From the NCBI GenBank assembly GCA_016789125.1, contig JAEUNU010000028.1, positions 1-38,442 of the forward strand: a DNA stretch of 38,442 bases, given 5' to 3'. The notes under the pieces are model-generated. The model did not search any database and was not told the origin of the DNA. It was given only the letters and a program-made list of their open reading frames with translations. This stretch comes from Zoogloea sp. (GTDB taxonomy: Bacteria > Pseudomonadota > Gammaproteobacteria > Burkholderiales > Rhodocyclaceae). The position numbers and the translations under genes were made by a program. Shown one piece after another: positions 32,711 through 38,442 of the stretch (position 1 is its first letter; every line of letters begins with the position of its first letter).

Positions 32711-33364
32711 ATGCGCCTCGCCGGGCTGCCGATCCTCCTGTTGTGCGGCCATTGCCTCGCCGATGGCTGCGACAGGCTCGCGCCGCCCTCGGTGAAGCTC
32801 GAGCTCCACGACGAGCCGATCAGCCTCGACACCCGCAGCAGCTACAAAACCCTCACCCTGCTCGGCCCGCCCCAGGCGCGGGGCGGCCAGCAGGTGCTCG
32901 GGCTCACCCGTGGCACCGCCACGGTGCGCTTCGAGACCCGCGTGGCGGCCTACGTCGACCCCAGCGGCCGCTGGGAATGCGCCAGCCCGCAGGTCACCGT
33001 GCGCTACGGCTTCAGCCCCATGACGGTTTACGTGGCCCGTGAATTCCCGCCCGGCAGTTGCGCCTACCGCGAGATCCACGAACACGAGATGCGCCATGTG
33101 CGCGCCTACCAGGCCCACCTCAAGGCCATCGAGAGAACCCTCGCCGACGCGCTCCAGGCCCGCTTTGCCGGCACCGGCCCGTGGCGCGGCCCCCGCGGCG
33201 AGACCAACGCCCGCCTCCAGGCCGAGCTGCAGGAGCGCTGGGTGCCCTTTGTAAAACGCGAGATCAACAAGGTGGACACCGCCCAGGCCCTCATCGACAC
33301 CCCCGAGGAGTACGCCCGCGTCGCCGCCAGCTGCGGCGGCGAGATCCGCAGGCTCACCCGCTAG
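32711..33364 (+). CDS. predicted secreted protein with HExxH zinc-protease-like motif
   Basis: A 217-residue protein with a short signal peptide (LAGLPILLLCGHCLA). A beta-rich first half (VTVRYGFSPMTVYVAREFPP) is followed by YREIHEHEMRHVRAYQAHL, where HEMRH fits HExxH, the zinc-binding motif of metalloproteases. The general layout recalls the DUF922 group of predicted secreted Zn-dependent proteases. A helical tail follows. ATG 32711 lies 13 nt after the chemoreceptor stop with no separate promoter visible, so cotranscription is likely. Activity is inferred from the motif only. Confidence 0.72.
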   Translation: MRLAGLPILLLCGHCLADGCDRLAPPSVKLELHDEPISLDTRSSYKTLTLLGPPQARGGQQVLGLTRGTATVRFETRVAAYVDPSGRWECASPQVTVRYGFSPMTVYVAREFPPGSCAYREIHEHEMRHVRAYQAHLKAIERTLADALQARFAGTGPWRGPRGETNARLQAELQERWVPFVKREINKVDTAQALIDTPEEYARVAASCGGEIRRLTR

Positions 33365-33451
33365 ACCCCCGCCGGGCCCACCGCCCGCCGCCCTCAAGCC
33401 CGCCGCGCGGCCCGCCCCACCGCCGCCCGATCGGGCACAATCCCGCCGACC

Positions 33452-34336
33452 ATGCTCCAGCGCCTCGCCAACCCCTACCTCCTGCTCACCCTTGCCGCCC
33501 TCTTCTGGTCGAGCAACATGGTGATCGGCCGCGCCATCCGCGGCGACATCCCGCCCTTCACCCTCGCCTTCGGGCGCTGGGTGGTGGCCGGCCTCATCGT
33601 GCTGCCCCTCGCGCTGCCCCAGGTCAAGGCCCAGTGGCCGCAGCTCAAGGCCGGCTGGCGGCCGCTGCTCATCCTCGGGCTGCTCGGCATCGCCGGCTAC
33701 AACACCTTCGCCTACCTCGGCCTGCAGCACACCACCGCCACCAACGCCGCGCTGCTCAACGCCTTCGTGCCCATCGCCACCATCGCCATCTCGTGGGCCT
33801 TCCTCGGCAAGCGGCTCAAGCCCCTCGAAGCCGCCGGCGTGCTCATCTCGCTGGGCGGCGCCCTCACCATCGTCGCCCGCGGCGAGCTGCAGGTGCTGGC
33901 CCGCCTCGACCTCAACATCGGCGACCTGTGGATGCTGCTGGCCGTGCTCGACTGGGCCCTCTACACCATCGCCCTCGCCTGGCGCCCCGCCGGCCTCCAC
34001 TCCATGCTGATGCTCGGCGCCACCATCGGCATCGGCATCGCCGCCCTGGCCCCCGCCTGCGCCTGGGAGCTCGCCCACGGCGCCCGGCCCAACGTAAGCC
34101 CCGGCACCCTCGCCACCGTGGCCTACCTCGGCATCGTGCCCGGCGTGTTCAGCTACATCTTCTACAACCGCGGCGTGGTCGAGGTGGGCGCCAACCGCGC
34201 CAGCCTGTTCATCCACCTCATGCCCGTGTTCGGCACCCTGCTGTCGTCGCTCTTCCTCGGCGAGGTCGCCCAGGCCTACCACTACCTCGGCATCGCGCTG
34301 ATCTTCGGCGGCATCGGGCTGACGATGGCGCGCTGA
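33452..34336 (+). CDS. EamA/DMT-superfamily transporter
   Basis: A 294-residue inner-membrane protein with ten predicted helices in two EamA repeats: repeat one begins LLLTLAALFWSSNMVIGRAI, repeat two begins GDLWMLLAVLDWALYTIAL near residue 155. Conserved endings include LLNAFVPIATIAISWAFLGKRL and LMPVFGTLLSSLFLGEVAQAYHYLGIALIFGGI. Members of this superfamily export amino acids, nucleosides or other metabolites. The substrate cannot be named. ATG 33452 gives the expected N-terminus; the ribosome binding site is weak. Confidence 0.92.
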   Translation: MLQRLANPYLLLTLAALFWSSNMVIGRAIRGDIPPFTLAFGRWVVAGLIVLPLALPQVKAQWPQLKAGWRPLLILGLLGIAGYNTFAYLGLQHTTATNAALLNAFVPIATIAISWAFLGKRLKPLEAAGVLISLGGALTIVARGELQVLARLDLNIGDLWMLLAVLDWALYTIALAWRPAGLHSMLMLGATIGIGIAALAPACAWELAHGARPNVSPGTLATVAYLGIVPGVFSYIFYNRGVVEVGANRASLFIHLMPVFGTLLSSLFLGEVAQAYHYLGIALIFGGIGLTMAR

Positions 34337-34453
34337 GGGGCGGGGCGCGCGGCGTGGATGGGGTTGTCGGCGCCGGTCGGCTATAACGGAAGCGGAATGC
34401 CCGCAGTCTTGCCGGGCGCGCAGCGGGCCACCGCCCCGGCGCCTGTGCTTCGA

Positions 34454-34499
34454 GTGCAGGCAAGTCTCTTGCCTTGCACCGCGGGCGGGCCCCGCCCGC
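34454..34499 (+). other. two hairpins before the hypothetical gene at 34537
   Basis: GTGCAGGCAAG-TCT-CTTGCCTTGCAC (34454-34479, one bulge) is followed by GCGGGCGGG / CCCGCCCGC (34481-34499). A T-rich stretch (TCTTTTT) comes 10 nt later. They may terminate the DMT transporter transcript or form a leader structure. Confidence 0.4.
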
Positions 34500-34536
34500 C
34501 CTGCGCTCCCTCTTTTTCCGCCACCGGAGGCCCGCC

Positions 34537-35007
34537 GTGAACGACGTCCCGATCGCCGAAGTCACCTTCTTCACCAACGTGCCCGCGGGCCATTACCCGA
34601 CGGACGACGATGCCGTGGTGGTGTCGGCGGACCTCGCCGAGCAGTTCGAGGCCCTGATCGCCGCCCGCGGCCTCGCCGACGCGCTGGCCGTGGTGCGCGT
34701 CGAATACCGCATGGGCTGCATCCTCACCACCCTCACCATCGGCGCGGTCATCGGCGCCGCCGGCGGAACCGTGGTGGGTTTCGCCAAGCTCTACCCCAAG
34801 CTCCGCCAGAGCCTCATCCTCTTGCTGCGCGACATCCACGGCCTCTACACCCACCTCCGCGACCCCGACAAGCGCGTCAGCAGCTGGCTCTATAACGACG
34901 ACGTGTTCGAGGAGGCCAAGATCCGGGACGCCACCCCGTCGGAAGCCAGAGACAAGAAGCCGCGCCGCAGGGAAGCCCCGCCGGCCGCGCCGAAGACCCG
35001 GCACTGA
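34537..35007 (+). CDS. hypothetical membrane-anchored protein with basic C-terminus
   Basis: A 156-residue protein of no recognised family. An N-terminal soluble part (~1-60, EVTFFTNVPAGHYPTDDDA) leads to one Gly-rich membrane segment (GCILTTLTIGAVIGAAGG, ~65-90). A cytoplasmic-looking tail ends in a Lys/Arg/Pro-rich stretch (DKKPRRREAPP). GTG 34537 is preferred because GGAGG lies at 34526-34530; the upstream ATG at 34474 falls inside the hairpin region. It stands just before the 83-bp repeat array. Confidence 0.72.
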   Translation: MNDVPIAEVTFFTNVPAGHYPTDDDAVVVSADLAEQFEALIAARGLADALAVVRVEYRMGCILTTLTIGAVIGAAGGTVVGFAKLYPKLRQSLILLLRDIHGLYTHLRDPDKRVSSWLYNDDVFEEAKIRDATPSEARDKKPRRREAPPAAPKTRH

Positions 35008-35043
35008 ACGCCACCCCGCGCCCTGCAGATCGAGCCCGCAGCG

Positions 35044-35376
35044 CAGAAAACACGCTTTCACACCCAAAAACGACACCGCCGGGCCTGGCAGCAGCGTTGT
35101 CTAGCCAGACAACAACGATGTTTCACCAAACAATGTCGTTGCACGCCGAAAAACAACGATGTCGGGCCCGACAACTCAATTGTTCGGCCCGACAACAACG
35201 ATGTTCGGCCTGACAACGTTGTTGCAGGCCGAAAAACATCAATGTTTCCGCCGACAACGACGATGTCGGGCACAACAACGACATTGTTCAGCCCGACAAC
35301 CCGATTTCACCGCGAAAAACTGGATTGCCCAGCCGGGCGGTGTGATTCGCGCGCCTGAAACAAGGCTCTCCGCCCC
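35044..35376. repeat. array of 16 degenerate 20-21-bp units in an 83-bp higher-order repeat
   Basis: Contiguous units start at 35044, 35065, 35086, 35107, 35128, 35148, 35169, 35190, 35211, 35231, 35252, 35273, 35294, 35314, 35335 and 35356. Thirteen are 21 bp and three (35128, 35211, 35294) are 20 bp. A typical unit starts CGACAAC, has CGATGTT near the middle and ends GGCC. Every fourth unit instead starts with AAAAAC after C or G (35065, 35148, 35231, 35314), exactly 83 bp apart. Many units hold ACAA...TTGT dyads (for example ACAACTCAATTGT at 35171-35183), and unit junctions give TGTCGGGCCCGACA. The outer units are the most diverged. No spacers, so not CRISPR. Confidence 0.88.
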
Positions 35377-35517
35377 CCGGGTAAGCCCTTTCCCGCCGTC
35401 GACCTCATCCCCCCTCGGCGCACCGAGCCCTGCCGCCCCGGCTTGCCCGCCTCACCCCCGGGTCATGCGGCTGATTTGCGGTGTACGTCAAAGGCATCAA
35501 ATAAAATGACATTGCGC

Positions 35518-35546
35518 TTCACTCTGGCGCTGCCCGGGCGTAATAT
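35518..35546 (+). promoter_or_regulatory. candidate promoter of the gene at 35598
   Basis: TTCACT (35518-35523) and TAATAT (35541-35546) are separated by 17 nt, each matching four of six sigma-70 consensus positions. A transcript from here would have a leader of roughly 45 nt. The repeat array lies about 140 bp upstream of the -35. Confidence 0.35.
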
Positions 35547-35597
35547 CGATCGCCGTAGTGCCCGCTTCTGTCGACAACCCAATGTACTGGAGACACC

Positions 35598-35972
35598 ATG
35601 CCGAACATCAACCCGAACACCCGCGTTTCCGCTGAACAGACCCAGGCCAACTTCGAGGCCTACCTCGCCCTCAAGAAGATCCCCGACTACGTCCCCATCA
35701 ACCCGGAACACAGCGTCGAGGCCGCCACCCTCTGCTACGAAGAACTGCTCGCCGCTGAAGAAGCCATCATCCACGCCGACAACGCCGCCGCCGCCGCCCG
35801 CGACAAGCTCCGCCAGGCCCGCTGGAAACTCCAGAACGTCATGGTCGGCGCCAAAGGCGAAGTCAAGGTCCGCTATGGCCTCGACTCCAACGAAGTCGCC
35901 GCCATCGGCCTGAAGAAGAAAAGCGAACGCTACAAACCCAGCAAGTCGAAGAAGGTGGCGGGTGGGGCGTAA
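35598..35972 (+). CDS. hypothetical small protein with coiled coil and basic tail
   Basis: A 124-residue soluble protein, family not recognised. The N-terminal third (NINPNTRVSAEQTQANFEAYL) is polar. Residues ~45-85 form an Ala-rich amphipathic helix (EELLAAEEAIIHADNAAAAA) likely to pack as a coiled coil. The last 20 residues are Lys/Ser-rich (KKKSERYKPSKSKK), as in nucleic-acid-binding tails. ATG 35598 follows CTGGAGA at 35587-35593, and a strong terminator follows, so it is a monocistronic gene. GC-rich codon use matches the chromosome. A link to the upstream array is possible but unproven. Confidence 0.82.
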   Translation: MPNINPNTRVSAEQTQANFEAYLALKKIPDYVPINPEHSVEAATLCYEELLAAEEAIIHADNAAAAARDKLRQARWKLQNVMVGAKGEVKVRYGLDSNEVAAIGLKKKSERYKPSKSKKVAGGA

Positions 35973-36015
35973 GCGAAGTGCCGCTACCTGAAATGGGTGG
36001 CGGAGATTGACGAAC

Positions 36016-36041
36016 AACGGCGGCCGCGGCCGCCGTTTTTT
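36016..36041 (+). terminator. Rho-independent terminator after the 35598 gene
   Basis: AACGGCGGCC (36016-36025) pairs with GGCCGCCGTT (36028-36037), followed by further T residues. It ends the small-protein transcript and marks the switch from GC-rich to AT-rich DNA. Confidence 0.92.
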
Positions 36042-36103
36042 ATGATGGGGGTATGATTAGGGCGGTGATTTTCGATCATTATATTTTTCTAAGGAGTTGT
36101 CTC

Positions 36104-36880
36104 ATGCCTCTGTCACTAGAAGATAAACAAGAACTTAAAGCTGCAAAGTACCTACTTGAAAATCCTGGAATTACGGCCAAACTTACAAACTTACTTGGTA
36201 CTCCGATTGAGAAGGGATTCAACCTGCTTCCGGAAAACTGGCGTGACAAGGTTGGGATAGCCACACGAGACGCGCTAATGGCTGCATTGCAGGGTGCTCT
36301 TTTTACGATGGATTCAGATGCCAAAGAAGCCTATCCGCGCTGGCACAAATTCGCCGCAGCCCTATCTGGAGGTGTCGGAGGGGCGTTTGGTCTTCCCGCA
36401 CTGATTATCGAATTGCCTGTTTCAACGACAATTATGTTGCGCTCAATAGCCGACATTGGGCGTTCACATGGTGAAATTCTGACGACCGCCGAATCAAAAA
36501 TTGCCTGTCTTGAAGTCTTTGCCCTTGGCGGGCCATCACCACATGACGACTCTTCTGAATCAGGGTACTTTGCGGTCAGAGGCGCACTTGCCCGTGCGGT
36601 GACGGAGGCATCCGAGTATCTCGCGGAAAAGGCAATCGTCGAGGAAGGTGCTCCGGCACTTGTGCGCTTAATCGCAGTTATTGCAGCACGATTTAAGGTT
36701 CAGGTTTCAGAGAAGGCTGCAGCGATGGCGATTCCCATCATCGGGGCAATCGGTGGTGGTGGGATTAACCTGCTTTTCATCGACCACTTCCAGGATATGA
36801 GTCGTGGTCATTTTGTGGTCCGGAAACTTGAGCGGAAGTACGGTGCAGATGTCGTGCGTGGCATGTACGAATCTCTTTAG
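36104..36880 (+). CDS. EcsC-family protein
   Basis: A 258-residue protein of the EcsC family (named after a Bacillus gene; function unknown). Features are the central Gly-rich hydrophobic stretch ALSGGVGGAFGLPALIIELP (~83-103), the helix STTIMLRSIADIGRSHGE, the LEVFALGG motif near 150, and the second hydrophobic part AMAIPIIGAIGGGGINLLFIDHFQDM (~208-233) before KLERKYG. ATG 36104 follows AAGGAG at 36091-36096; the longer ORF start at 36053 has no such site. Codon use is more AT-rich than in all genes to the left, suggesting horizontal acquisition. Confidence 0.85.
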   Translation: MPLSLEDKQELKAAKYLLENPGITAKLTNLLGTPIEKGFNLLPENWRDKVGIATRDALMAALQGALFTMDSDAKEAYPRWHKFAAALSGGVGGAFGLPALIIELPVSTTIMLRSIADIGRSHGEILTTAESKIACLEVFALGGPSPHDDSSESGYFAVRGALARAVTEASEYLAEKAIVEEGAPALVRLIAVIAARFKVQVSEKAAAMAIPIIGAIGGGGINLLFIDHFQDMSRGHFVVRKLERKYGADVVRGMYESL

Positions 36881-37153
36881 ATAGATGCGAAATTATTAAT
36901 CTCGACGCGGGGCGTTTGGTCTATTGGAGATATGTTTATGAGTTTGGATTTAATGTTTTGGGGTGAGGTAAGTCGAGTTGGTGCAGTGTAATCCGACATC
37001 CTTAGCCCATATCGACGCGCCATCACCTCTCCAGCGGCACCCTCTTCTTCTTCGCCTTCATGAGGAACCGCCACCGGCCCGCGCTGCCTCTGACTGAAGT
37101 CGTCGATGCTTAGCGCGATATCTTCCGATTTCCTAGAGAAAAAAGGACTTTGC
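36881..37153. other. AT-rich intergenic region with an embedded GC-rich remnant
   Basis: AT-rich flanks surround a GC-rich block at about 37010-37115. On the minus strand this block reads as a reading-frame tail ending FLMKAKKKRVPLER before TGA. Next to it is the motif GGTGCAGTGTAATCCGAC (36980-36997), like one half of a dispersed extragenic palindrome. It looks like the leftover 3' end of a chromosomal gene at an insertion boundary, but I cannot name the gene. Confidence 0.4.
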
Positions 37154-38122
37154 ATGACTTTAAGCTGGACGTCTGCTGAATATGGAAAAGTTGAGAGAAT
37201 TTTTTTTCCTGAGTTAGAAAGAAGGAAGCAGGATTTTATTAAAAATGGCGTCAAGTTCGCCTATTATACGTCGGCGGACGTGGCAAAAAGCATTCTCGAG
37301 AATAAGAAAATTTGGATGCGAAATATTCAAACAATGAACGATCCATCGGAATTCATATATGGGGAAAAGTTGTTTGGAAGATTAAAAGGGAGCCCAGTAT
37401 GGAAGAGGTTCGAGAACGCCCTCAACTCGATCAGGCCACTCCAAGCGAGTCAAACGATGTTTATTTTTGATACGTGGGCCAGTCTGATGAAGACTGCCAC
37501 GTTTATAACCTGCTTCTCTGAGCATGACAAAGAAGAAGATCAGAATGGTCGTCTTTCTATGTGGCGTGCTTATGGTGGAAGAAACGGCGTTGCGCTCATT
37601 TTTAAGGCGGGGGCCATGTCTTTGGAGAATGAAAGCCTTGCTGTTCAGGCTATGCCTGTAAGCTATTTAAGTGAGGATAAATTCATAGAAAGCTTCACGA
37701 AGATTGTTGATAAGCTTGAGATAAATGTCGCTCAGCATGGGATAAATAATAATGTGTTCGCTTTTTTGGTTGCGCGCTTTCTCCGGTTGCTGTTGTTGTG
37801 CACAAAACATCCCGGATTTCATGAGGAGAGAGAGTGGCGAGTAATTGCACAGCCAGCAGAAAAATGTACGGATTTTATAGAGCGAAATATTGAGATCGTA
37901 CGAGGTACTCCTCAGGTGGTCTATAAAATGATAATGAAAGAACAGCCTGCAAAAGGCATTAAAGATATTGATCTTCACAAGCTGCTTGAGAAAATAATTA
38001 TAGGACCATGTGATTTTCCTGAGATCTCTCGCGACGCGCTGCTTGAACTTATGGATCACGCAGGGGTTCAAGGCAAAGATGAGAGAATTGTTGTTTCAGG
38101 AATTCCTCTTCGATACTTTTAG
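37154..38122 (+). CDS. DUF2971 domain protein
   Basis: A 322-residue soluble protein with the DUF2971 signature: YYTSADVAKSILENKKIWM, then NIQTMNDPSEF (near residue 75), FITCFSEHDKEEDQ and SMWRAYGGRNGVALIF (near 135-165), and KHPGFHEEREWRVI (near 235). Members occur sporadically, often in genomic islands; the biochemical role is unknown. ATG 37154 follows AAAAGGA at 37141-37147 and is preferred to the ORF start at 37106. Its AT-rich codon use differs clearly from the chromosomal background. Confidence 0.88.
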   Translation: MTLSWTSAEYGKVERIFFPELERRKQDFIKNGVKFAYYTSADVAKSILENKKIWMRNIQTMNDPSEFIYGEKLFGRLKGSPVWKRFENALNSIRPLQASQTMFIFDTWASLMKTATFITCFSEHDKEEDQNGRLSMWRAYGGRNGVALIFKAGAMSLENESLAVQAMPVSYLSEDKFIESFTKIVDKLEINVAQHGINNNVFAFLVARFLRLLLLCTKHPGFHEEREWRVIAQPAEKCTDFIERNIEIVRGTPQVVYKMIMKEQPAKGIKDIDLHKLLEKIIIGPCDFPEISRDALLELMDHAGVQGKDERIVVSGIPLRYF

Positions 38123-38139
38123 TTCAAGTGGCTCCGGTT

Positions 38140-38157
38140 AGCGCAGCGTAACCCAAC
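38140..38157. repeat. imperfect direct repeat flanking the DUF2971 gene (right copy)
   Basis: AGCGCAGCGTAACCCAAC resembles GGTGCAGTGTAATCCGAC at 36980-36997 (13 of 18 positions identical by eye) in the same orientation. Both look like the extragenic motif RGCGCAGCGTAATCCGAC seen in several betaproteobacteria. The pair brackets the DUF2971 gene. Confidence 0.45.
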
Positions 38158-38193
38158 TCTAAGGACTTCCCTGTCAAATACCGTTTTCCAATG

Positions 38194-38215
38194 ACCGGCC
38201 GCTAGGCCGGTTTTT
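38194..38215 (+). terminator. Rho-independent terminator after the DUF2971 gene
   Basis: ACCGGCC (38194-38200), loop GCTA, and GGCCGGT (38205-38211) are followed by TTTTCTTTC. It lies about 70 nt after the DUF2971 stop and before the convergent IS110 transposase. Confidence 0.85.
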
Positions 38216-38280
38216 CTTTCCTGCGTTCCCTTCCAGACTCCTGCGCACACGCGACGGATCGGACGGACAGACTGTTGCGC

Positions 38281-38442
38281 TCAGGCCTGTGGATTGTAGG
38301 ACTCGCCTTTCGCCAGCACTGCCCACAGCTGCCGGGCGTGCTTGTTGGCGATGGCAACGAGTGTCTTGTGGTAGCCGATCCGCCCGTTGAGCGCGACGAT
38401 CCACTGCTGCAGACGCGTCAGCTGGTCGGGCGACTCCCGCCG
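38281..38442 (-). CDS. IS110-family transposase, C-terminal end only
   Basis: Fifty-three codons remain before the TGA; the rest is beyond the window. The peptide ends IANKHARQLWAVLAKGESY, the characteristic IS110 tail (alaNKnaRiaWalL), preceded by a helical segment (RLQQWIVALNGRIGYHKTLV). IS110 enzymes are DEDD transposases with a C-terminal Ser-containing Tnp20 domain and act with a structured bridge RNA in the element's non-coding end. The region 38216-38280 would be the element's 3' flank; no RNA structure is evident in this short piece. Confidence 0.85.
   Translation of the reverse strand, partial: RRESPDQLTRLQQWIVALNGRIGYHKTLVAIANKHARQLWAVLAKGESYNPQA

Follow-up and report, generated by a model that had tools for sequence, protein, structure and literature searches.

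Our findings point to an undescribed module in bacteria that joins a small protein to an array of DNA repeats. In the window, by which we mean the whole 38,442-nt stretch of Zoogloea sp. DNA analyzed here, the array is genuine DNA-level patterning on a grid of 21 bases, or two helix turns. When positions 35044-35376 were autocorrelated, the top peak fell at a lag of 83 (identity 0.592, z 10.1 against 500 first-order Markov sequences), followed by lag 21 (0.481, z 8.9) and then by lags 104, 62, 145, and 166, and the value at lag 83 was the highest in the whole 38 kb (333-bp windows, 50-bp steps, lags 11-200). Tandem Repeats Finder reported a period of 83 at 35104-35258 (1.9 copies, 77% matches, 0% indels) and a longer row at 35109-35300 (74% matches, 3% indels). 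These results bear out the 83-bp period proposed in an earlier, sequence-only reading of this DNA, and the A-rich units begin where that reading had placed them, at 35065, 35148, 35231, and 35314, in exact 83-bp steps. Its count of 16 contiguous units stands for 14 of them. Segmentation gave lengths of 20, 21, 21, 21, 20, 21, 21, 21, 20, 21, 21, 21, and 20 plus a last unit, and in a leave-one-out unit model unit 1 scored P 0.003 and the remaining 13 scored P 0.001 or less; the final two units claimed, at 35337 and 35358, lacked support in the same model (P 0.06 and 0.11).

Coordinates of the array, its higher-order periods, and the array-linked gene in the window
Feature	Position	Strand	Remarks
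Array, 14 supported 20-21 bp units	35046..35336	.	83-bp (21+21+21+20) higher-order period; autocorrelation, segmentation, leave-one-out scores
Higher-order repeat period 1, A-rich first unit	35065..35147	.	
Higher-order repeat period 2	35148..35230	.	
Higher-order repeat period 3	35231..35313	.	
Spacer, array to gene	35337..35597	+	
124-aa protein, founder of array-linked family	35598..35972	+	helix 40-93 predicted, basic tail; no known family

The unit of the window array approximates ACAACnnCGaTGTynGGCCYG, with ACAA/TTGT and GGCC dyads alternating about every 10.4 bp, and the lattice has a self-reverse-complementarity of 0.83, compared to 0.37±0.10 in 500 column permutations (P<0.002). A coding repeat, which the sequence-only reading had considered unlikely, is ruled out for the group to which the window array belongs (family A), as 83 bp is out of frame. 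In the spacer between the array and the gene, we found neither a terminator-like site on the + strand nor a sigma-70-like site, and the array word does not recur there as a significant single copy close to the start codon.

The window array belongs to a dispersed, non-coding class. Stretches that had not been selected for arrays were scanned for tandem arrays at every period between 13 and 40; the scanned contigs were mostly ones with earlier matches to an array, a pattern, or DNA of homologues of the 124-aa protein, so homologue loci are over-represented. In 960 kb (593 kb from Zoogloea ramigera and 367 kb from the window's own genome), 14 of the 17 arrays called had a period of 21 and the remaining three had periods of 14, 15, and 18, and a third-order Markov control of 15 pieces yielded no arrays. 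Most of the newly called arrays have words unrelated, by eye, to those of families A or B, and the two-turn spacing noted from the window alone recurs in these arrays of unrelated sequence. Arrays resolved into units contain ~12-25 degenerate units each at period 21. A self-reverse-complementary 21-column profile was found at P<0.05 for 22/27 array consensuses, orthologues included, and the other five were not significantly symmetric. Gene orientation at 25 arrays (15 tandem, 4 convergent, 3 divergent, 2 undetermined, and 1 over a called ORF) resembled the background (131/52/50). Among other Zoogloea genomes, period-21 arrays were absent from the stretches of G005 (400 kb) and G004 (187 kb), one was called in 60 kb of G003, and 60 kb of G010 had none at period 21 and one at period 18. 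Three genomes with the protein gave 15 arrays in ~1.02 Mb versus 0 in ~0.65 Mb from three without it (P 8e-4), a comparison in which the with-protein contigs were known from earlier matches, some of them homologue matches.

Family A arrays occupy two loci in the window's own genome. The second, 71% identical to the window array, lies in a toluene/phenol monooxygenase operon with hydroxylase, Rieske, and MmoB/DmpM domains, where it separates the tmoB-like gene from the tmoC-like gene. The tmoB-tmoC gap is ~414 bp with the array and ~20-50 bp in four relatives without it, so the array is a gain within the operon. A DNA search with the family A word matched 3/100 genomes, the own genome included and all of one genus. 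One of them, Z. ramigera NBRC 15342, carries an orthologue of the window array with syntenic flanks, and the pair differs by 57 mismatches and 0 indels over 265 bp in a gapless count, or by 2 indels per 63 substitutions in a blastn alignment under a simple ORF mask. For the aligned intergenic DNA of this pair, blastn gives 32 indels per 151 substitutions, and the indel depletion in the array gave a Fisher P of 8e-5 for the gapless array count against the blastn intergenic count, which were not made alike. Two other orthologue pairs were without clear depletion (5 per 52 versus 7 per 51, and 8 per 44 versus 17 per 105). The proposal that spacing outlives sequence thus holds for the window array and finds no clear counterpart in those two pairs. 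The Z. ramigera orthologue of the window array also has period 83. Between tmoB and tmoC, the own-genome array again repeats every 83 bp, but its orthologue does so every 84 bp (4 x 21). Hence 83 itself is not fixed, and the description of this period as strict fails outside the window array.

We also recorded features of the DNA around the arrays. Synteny with Z. ramigera (window 33362-35104 versus L041) breaks between 33362 and the array, and the window EamA gene and the 34540 ORF have no nucleotide match at that place in the Z. ramigera stretch examined; the 3' part of the 34540 ORF matches the flank of another family A array in that species. A REPIN-like inverted pair, GTAGGTGCGAAT...ATTCGCACCTAC, is found between the tmoB-tmoC array and tmoC of the own genome (L004:1954-2040) and is absent from the orthologue (L043). 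A REP-like palindrome, GTAGGTCGGGTTAGCGCAGCGTAACCCGACA, occurs at L107:6026, L179 ~2700, L247 ~7060, L250 ~16068, and L110 ~6246, with its TGTCGGG end facing the array at 4/5 sites, and at a lone site at window position 38136. L039:2014-2091, which lies ~350 bp away from an array of family A, matches the Rfam entry AAC_AAD_leader / attI below threshold (E 0.0025, 32.6 bits, cut-off 56). In window 36000-38442, G+C drops from ~0.70 to 0.44-0.50, and this part carries an EcsC-family gene and a DUF2971 gene; a genomic island probably starts just 3' of the array-linked gene.

Family B has a period of 84 bp (4 x 21). Pattern and model searches located it four times in the own genome (C98, C257, C60, and C176) and also in the Zoogloea genomes G008 and G004. 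Six copies align over 258 columns with gaps near the edges only. Among 71 predicted stem pairs in this alignment, 12 show compensated changes, a number reached by 0/500 shuffles and compared to 0-3 in slid controls. Variable columns are spread over codon positions as 30/31/33, ruling out a coding repeat for this family as well.

A two-unit pattern matched 6/23 genus genomes, with 0/23 for a reversed-pattern control, and 4/369 class genomes; the match in G003 reads as coding by eye, and the class-genome matches L097, L098, and L099 were judged by eye to be chance or coding. Model R1 matched 11/23 genus genomes. Ten weak R1 loci were inspected and appeared to be coding, several of them resembling folD, except for L053, which is the edge of a family B array. 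Arrays L221 (42 bp) and L200 (30 bp) also look coding, by eye or from the surrounding open frame. Of 295 genomes around a Bacteroidetes MAG, seven had a match; of two inspected, the MAG has an array and L162 has none. That MAG (NC_groundwater_796) contains 21-bp-unit arrays with ACAATTGAGTTGT dyads at L222:18930-19220 and L112:4010-4240; in L222 the 21-bp units extend a series of 20-bp units with a different word, GCTGCAAGCTTCTTGTAGGC.

The 124-aa protein family and an immediately upstream period-21 array occur together in Zoogloea and a second genus of the taxonomic family as well as on one cyanobacterial plasmid. Genes of 122-127 aa recur around arrays. In a first count by tblastn, in which some places were counted twice, 27/36 matches had a period-21 array upstream. 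In a profile search, 34/47 unique homologues had a period-21 array within 650 bp upstream, where 47 is the number with at least 450 bp of upstream DNA among the matches listed; the family-genome search gave more than the 30 loci taken. The same 47 homologues had no upstream array of any other period scanned (13-40) and none was called downstream. By comparison, only 10/687 other ORFs in stretches of G008 and the own genome had an upstream period-21 array (Fisher P 7e-39, with the homologues being related and not 47 independent draws). Arrays upstream of relatives of the 35598 gene, a check suggested by the sequence-only reading, are therefore strongly in evidence; for 13/47 homologues, no upstream array was called. 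In the second genus, all seven loci inspected, one per genome, had an upstream array, one of them weak. Upstream of a homologue on a Nostoc plasmid is an array of another word, which recurs in a further array ~1.2 kb away.

Arrays also occur on their own. Solo arrays with the same word and without the gene were found for families A and B and for the Nostoc word, 8/14 period-21 arrays are not beside a homologue among the tblastn matches listed, and G004 has a family B array with no homologue listed. For proteins >75% identical, array similarity was high (20 pairs, mean score 7.4); it dropped for proteins 60-75% identical (eight pairs, mean 1.2, highest 4.7) and for those <60% identical (means 0.6-0.8), and below 75% identity the correlation of protein with array similarity was weak (Spearman 0.16, permutation P 0.034). 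High array similarity mainly above 75% protein identity suggests that words change fast and that protein-array pairs seem to be co-inherited. Across 31 loci, isolated array words near start codons scored a mean z of -0.01, with two above z 2; autoregulation is thus not supported, and we rejected an autoregulatory operator near the start codon.

The 124-aa protein heads an undescribed family, with no convincing match in Pfam, NCBIfam, PADLOC, PHROGs, or the PDB. An alignment of 25 homologues has invariant Y31, K86, G94, S97, G104, K106, K107, and S109. Scanned as single members, these homologues gave no convincing match in Pfam (best E 0.005) or NCBIfam (best E 0.012); the best E for the array-linked family among PDB sequences was 0.19, and four family proteins scanned gave none in PADLOC and a best E of 0.019 in PHROGs. 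An AlphaFold2 model of the 124-aa protein (pLDDT 82.6, pTM 0.52) has helices at 12-26 and 40-93 and a loose basic tail, and a fold search of the PDB with this model returned 11 matches at E≤10 and none at E≤0.001. The protein was found in 21/395 genomes of the taxonomic family (14 of the own genus and seven of the second genus, the latter with 13 homologue matches in all), with G005, G004, and G010 listed without it. A search of 369 class genomes recovered it from the own genome and gave a weak match in one more. The Nostoc homologue, a full ORF with a profile E of 5e-28, was in the one plasmid record matched; similar C-terminal motifs occur in unannotated cyanobacterial proteins. We found no viral-contig relative and no phage tblastn match for the protein, and a phage or plasmid origin of the array DNA was rejected, as blastn gave no match and two patterns had no viral-contig match.

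The symmetry of the arrays looks to be a DNA-level property, in the form of palindromic sites in duplex DNA or of cruciform hairpins. Each of the 13 arrays tested folded better than its 40 shuffles, whichever strand was taken (z -1.9 to -13.3). Stem mismatches in 14 arrays comprised 16 G-T versus 21 A-C, and in the sense orientation of 35 gene-linked arrays 25 G-T versus 41 A-C (P 0.06). A transcript hairpin would favor G-T on its own strand, and the lack of such an excess places the symmetry at the level of DNA. Rfam searches of nine loci gave five sub-threshold matches only and no known RNA.

On balance, we favor a reading in which the 124-aa protein, with predicted recognition of its own word, makes up one half of a two-part module and the array upstream of its gene makes up the DNA half. 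The protein, which in the model has a long helix and a basic C-terminal tail and is probably a dimer, would recognize, in duplex or cruciform DNA, the palindromic word that its own array repeats. One dimer would occupy each 21-bp unit, with all dimers on one helix face, and the protein would coat the array cooperatively; the gene-linked array would serve as a home site and solo arrays as further sites. We propose that selection on side-by-side binding, combined with unit exchange between copies, would keep the register constant as the sequence drifts. The compensated changes in 12/71 stem pairs speak against the dimer-site part of this reading, being more natural for paired strands or template switching. 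Against the module as a whole stand the 13/47 homologues without a called array and the Bacteroidetes MAG, which has 21-bp arrays and in ~410 kb of which no homologue of the 124-aa protein was found. The G004 array with no homologue listed, the 8/14 period-21 arrays not beside a listed homologue, the five array consensuses lacking significant symmetry, the weak protein-array correlation below 75% identity, the lack of array words near start codons, and the clear indel depletion in just one of three orthologue pairs count against it as well.

Other explanations account for parts of these observations. Solo arrays and insertion into an operon fit either extra binding sites or self-spreading, and the arrays might be mobile palindromic elements in the style of REP/REPIN with RAYT, with the small protein aiding copying and solo arrays being non-autonomous. 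REP/REPIN sequences are dispersed intergenic palindromes with several classes per genome, each class having a copy beside its cognate gene, and REP/RAYT diversity is attributed to co-evolution (PMC3116915, PMC3733652). Families A and B, with and without a gene, resemble this arrangement of one palindrome class per cognate gene, and the own genome does carry arrays of one word in more than one unrelated place (two loci for family A and four for family B), with one array gained between tmoB and tmoC. Of 26 Zoogloea arrays, 5 have a GTAG-type REP-like sequence no more than 200 bp away, compared to 0.6% of random placements, and by eye indel variants add more. However, the other 21 arrays, the window's included, have no REP-like neighbor by ungapped match, so that such sequences flank some arrays only, and by eye the GTAG tag is not seen in the array words themselves, which are packed head to tail at 21 bp. 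Moreover, Pfam and NCBIfam scans of the 25 homologues detected no tyrosine transposase (HUH, RAYT-type), and a protein of 124 residues, helical in its model and without a transposase family match, fits copying poorly; self-spreading is in our judgment unlikely. Alternatively, the arrays could be functionless mutational by-products, palindromic minisatellites that slippage, unit exchange, and quasi-palindrome template switching create and hold in register. Whole-unit gain or loss (a 21-bp gap in one paralogue and a 22-bp gap in one orthologue pair), concerted arm changes, and, by eye, clustered core changes and core inversions between orthologues are all in keeping with such processes. Because these processes leave unexplained both the period of 21 in 14/17 arrays and the position upstream of one protein family, we regard a pure by-product as quite improbable.

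A further alternative, along the lines of type III toxin-antitoxin systems, is that the array is transcribed into an RNA with multiple hairpins and that this RNA controls the downstream protein. In ToxIN, CptIN, and TenpIN, tandem repeats lie immediately upstream of a small gene and are conserved between close relatives, with ToxI units of ~34-36 nt in ~3-6 copies (PMC5086642). The arrays share the placement directly upstream of a small protein gene (34/47 homologues), and both their folding on either strand (13/13 better than shuffles) and the compensated stem changes, reached by 0/500 shuffles, would suit an RNA. Their units, in contrast, are 21 bp long, number ~12-25 per array, and are degenerate and mostly inversion-symmetric. 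That symmetry is not strand-specific: the antisense strand folds equally strongly, and the sense strand shows no G-U tolerance (G-T 25, A-C 41). The window also lacks a rho-independent terminator between array and gene (+ strand, 35337-35597), solo arrays occur elsewhere, none of nine loci matched an RNA family at threshold, and the protein, helical in its model, had no endoribonuclease match in Pfam or NCBIfam (25 homologues) or, by sequence or fold, in the PDB. We consider an RNA module distinctly unlikely.

The two-part module that we favor also invites comparison with plasmid centromeres and iterons (parC/ParR, parS/ParB, and Rep iterons), whose sites are about two helix turns apart and adjoin the gene for the binding protein. 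The two-turn spacing and the array beside a putative binding-protein gene are shared, whereas the arrays here are scattered over numerous chromosomal loci, with words unrelated to one another. The six window ORFs scanned encode an EamA transporter, an EcsC protein, a DUF2971 protein, and three proteins without a match; with no initiator or partition ATPase gene among them, the suggestion of an iteron or centromere-like site found no support. CRISPR arrays consist of near-identical repeats with unrelated spacers, unlike the contiguous degenerate units without spacers seen here. We found no description of an element of such structure in searches of open-licence papers, in agreement with the sequence-only reading, which was aware of none.

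We tentatively raise the possibility, still short of probable, that these arrays and proteins constitute a new class of chromosomal nucleoprotein element, in which fast-diversifying small helical proteins would each read their own palindromic word every two helix turns in adjacent and satellite arrays, and in which several mutually independent systems per genome would organize, mark, or spread DNA. A two-turn spacing that stays fixed across unrelated sequences, located 5' of one protein family wherever an array is called next to it, is a clear example from nature of selection acting on the geometry of DNA and not on its letters. The findings bring to light a class of repeats that can escape ordinary repeat annotation, since its copies do not resemble each other, and they offer a set of possibly orthogonal protein-operator pairs. 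For the protein family itself, which is uncharacterized, linkage to the arrays provides a testable job.
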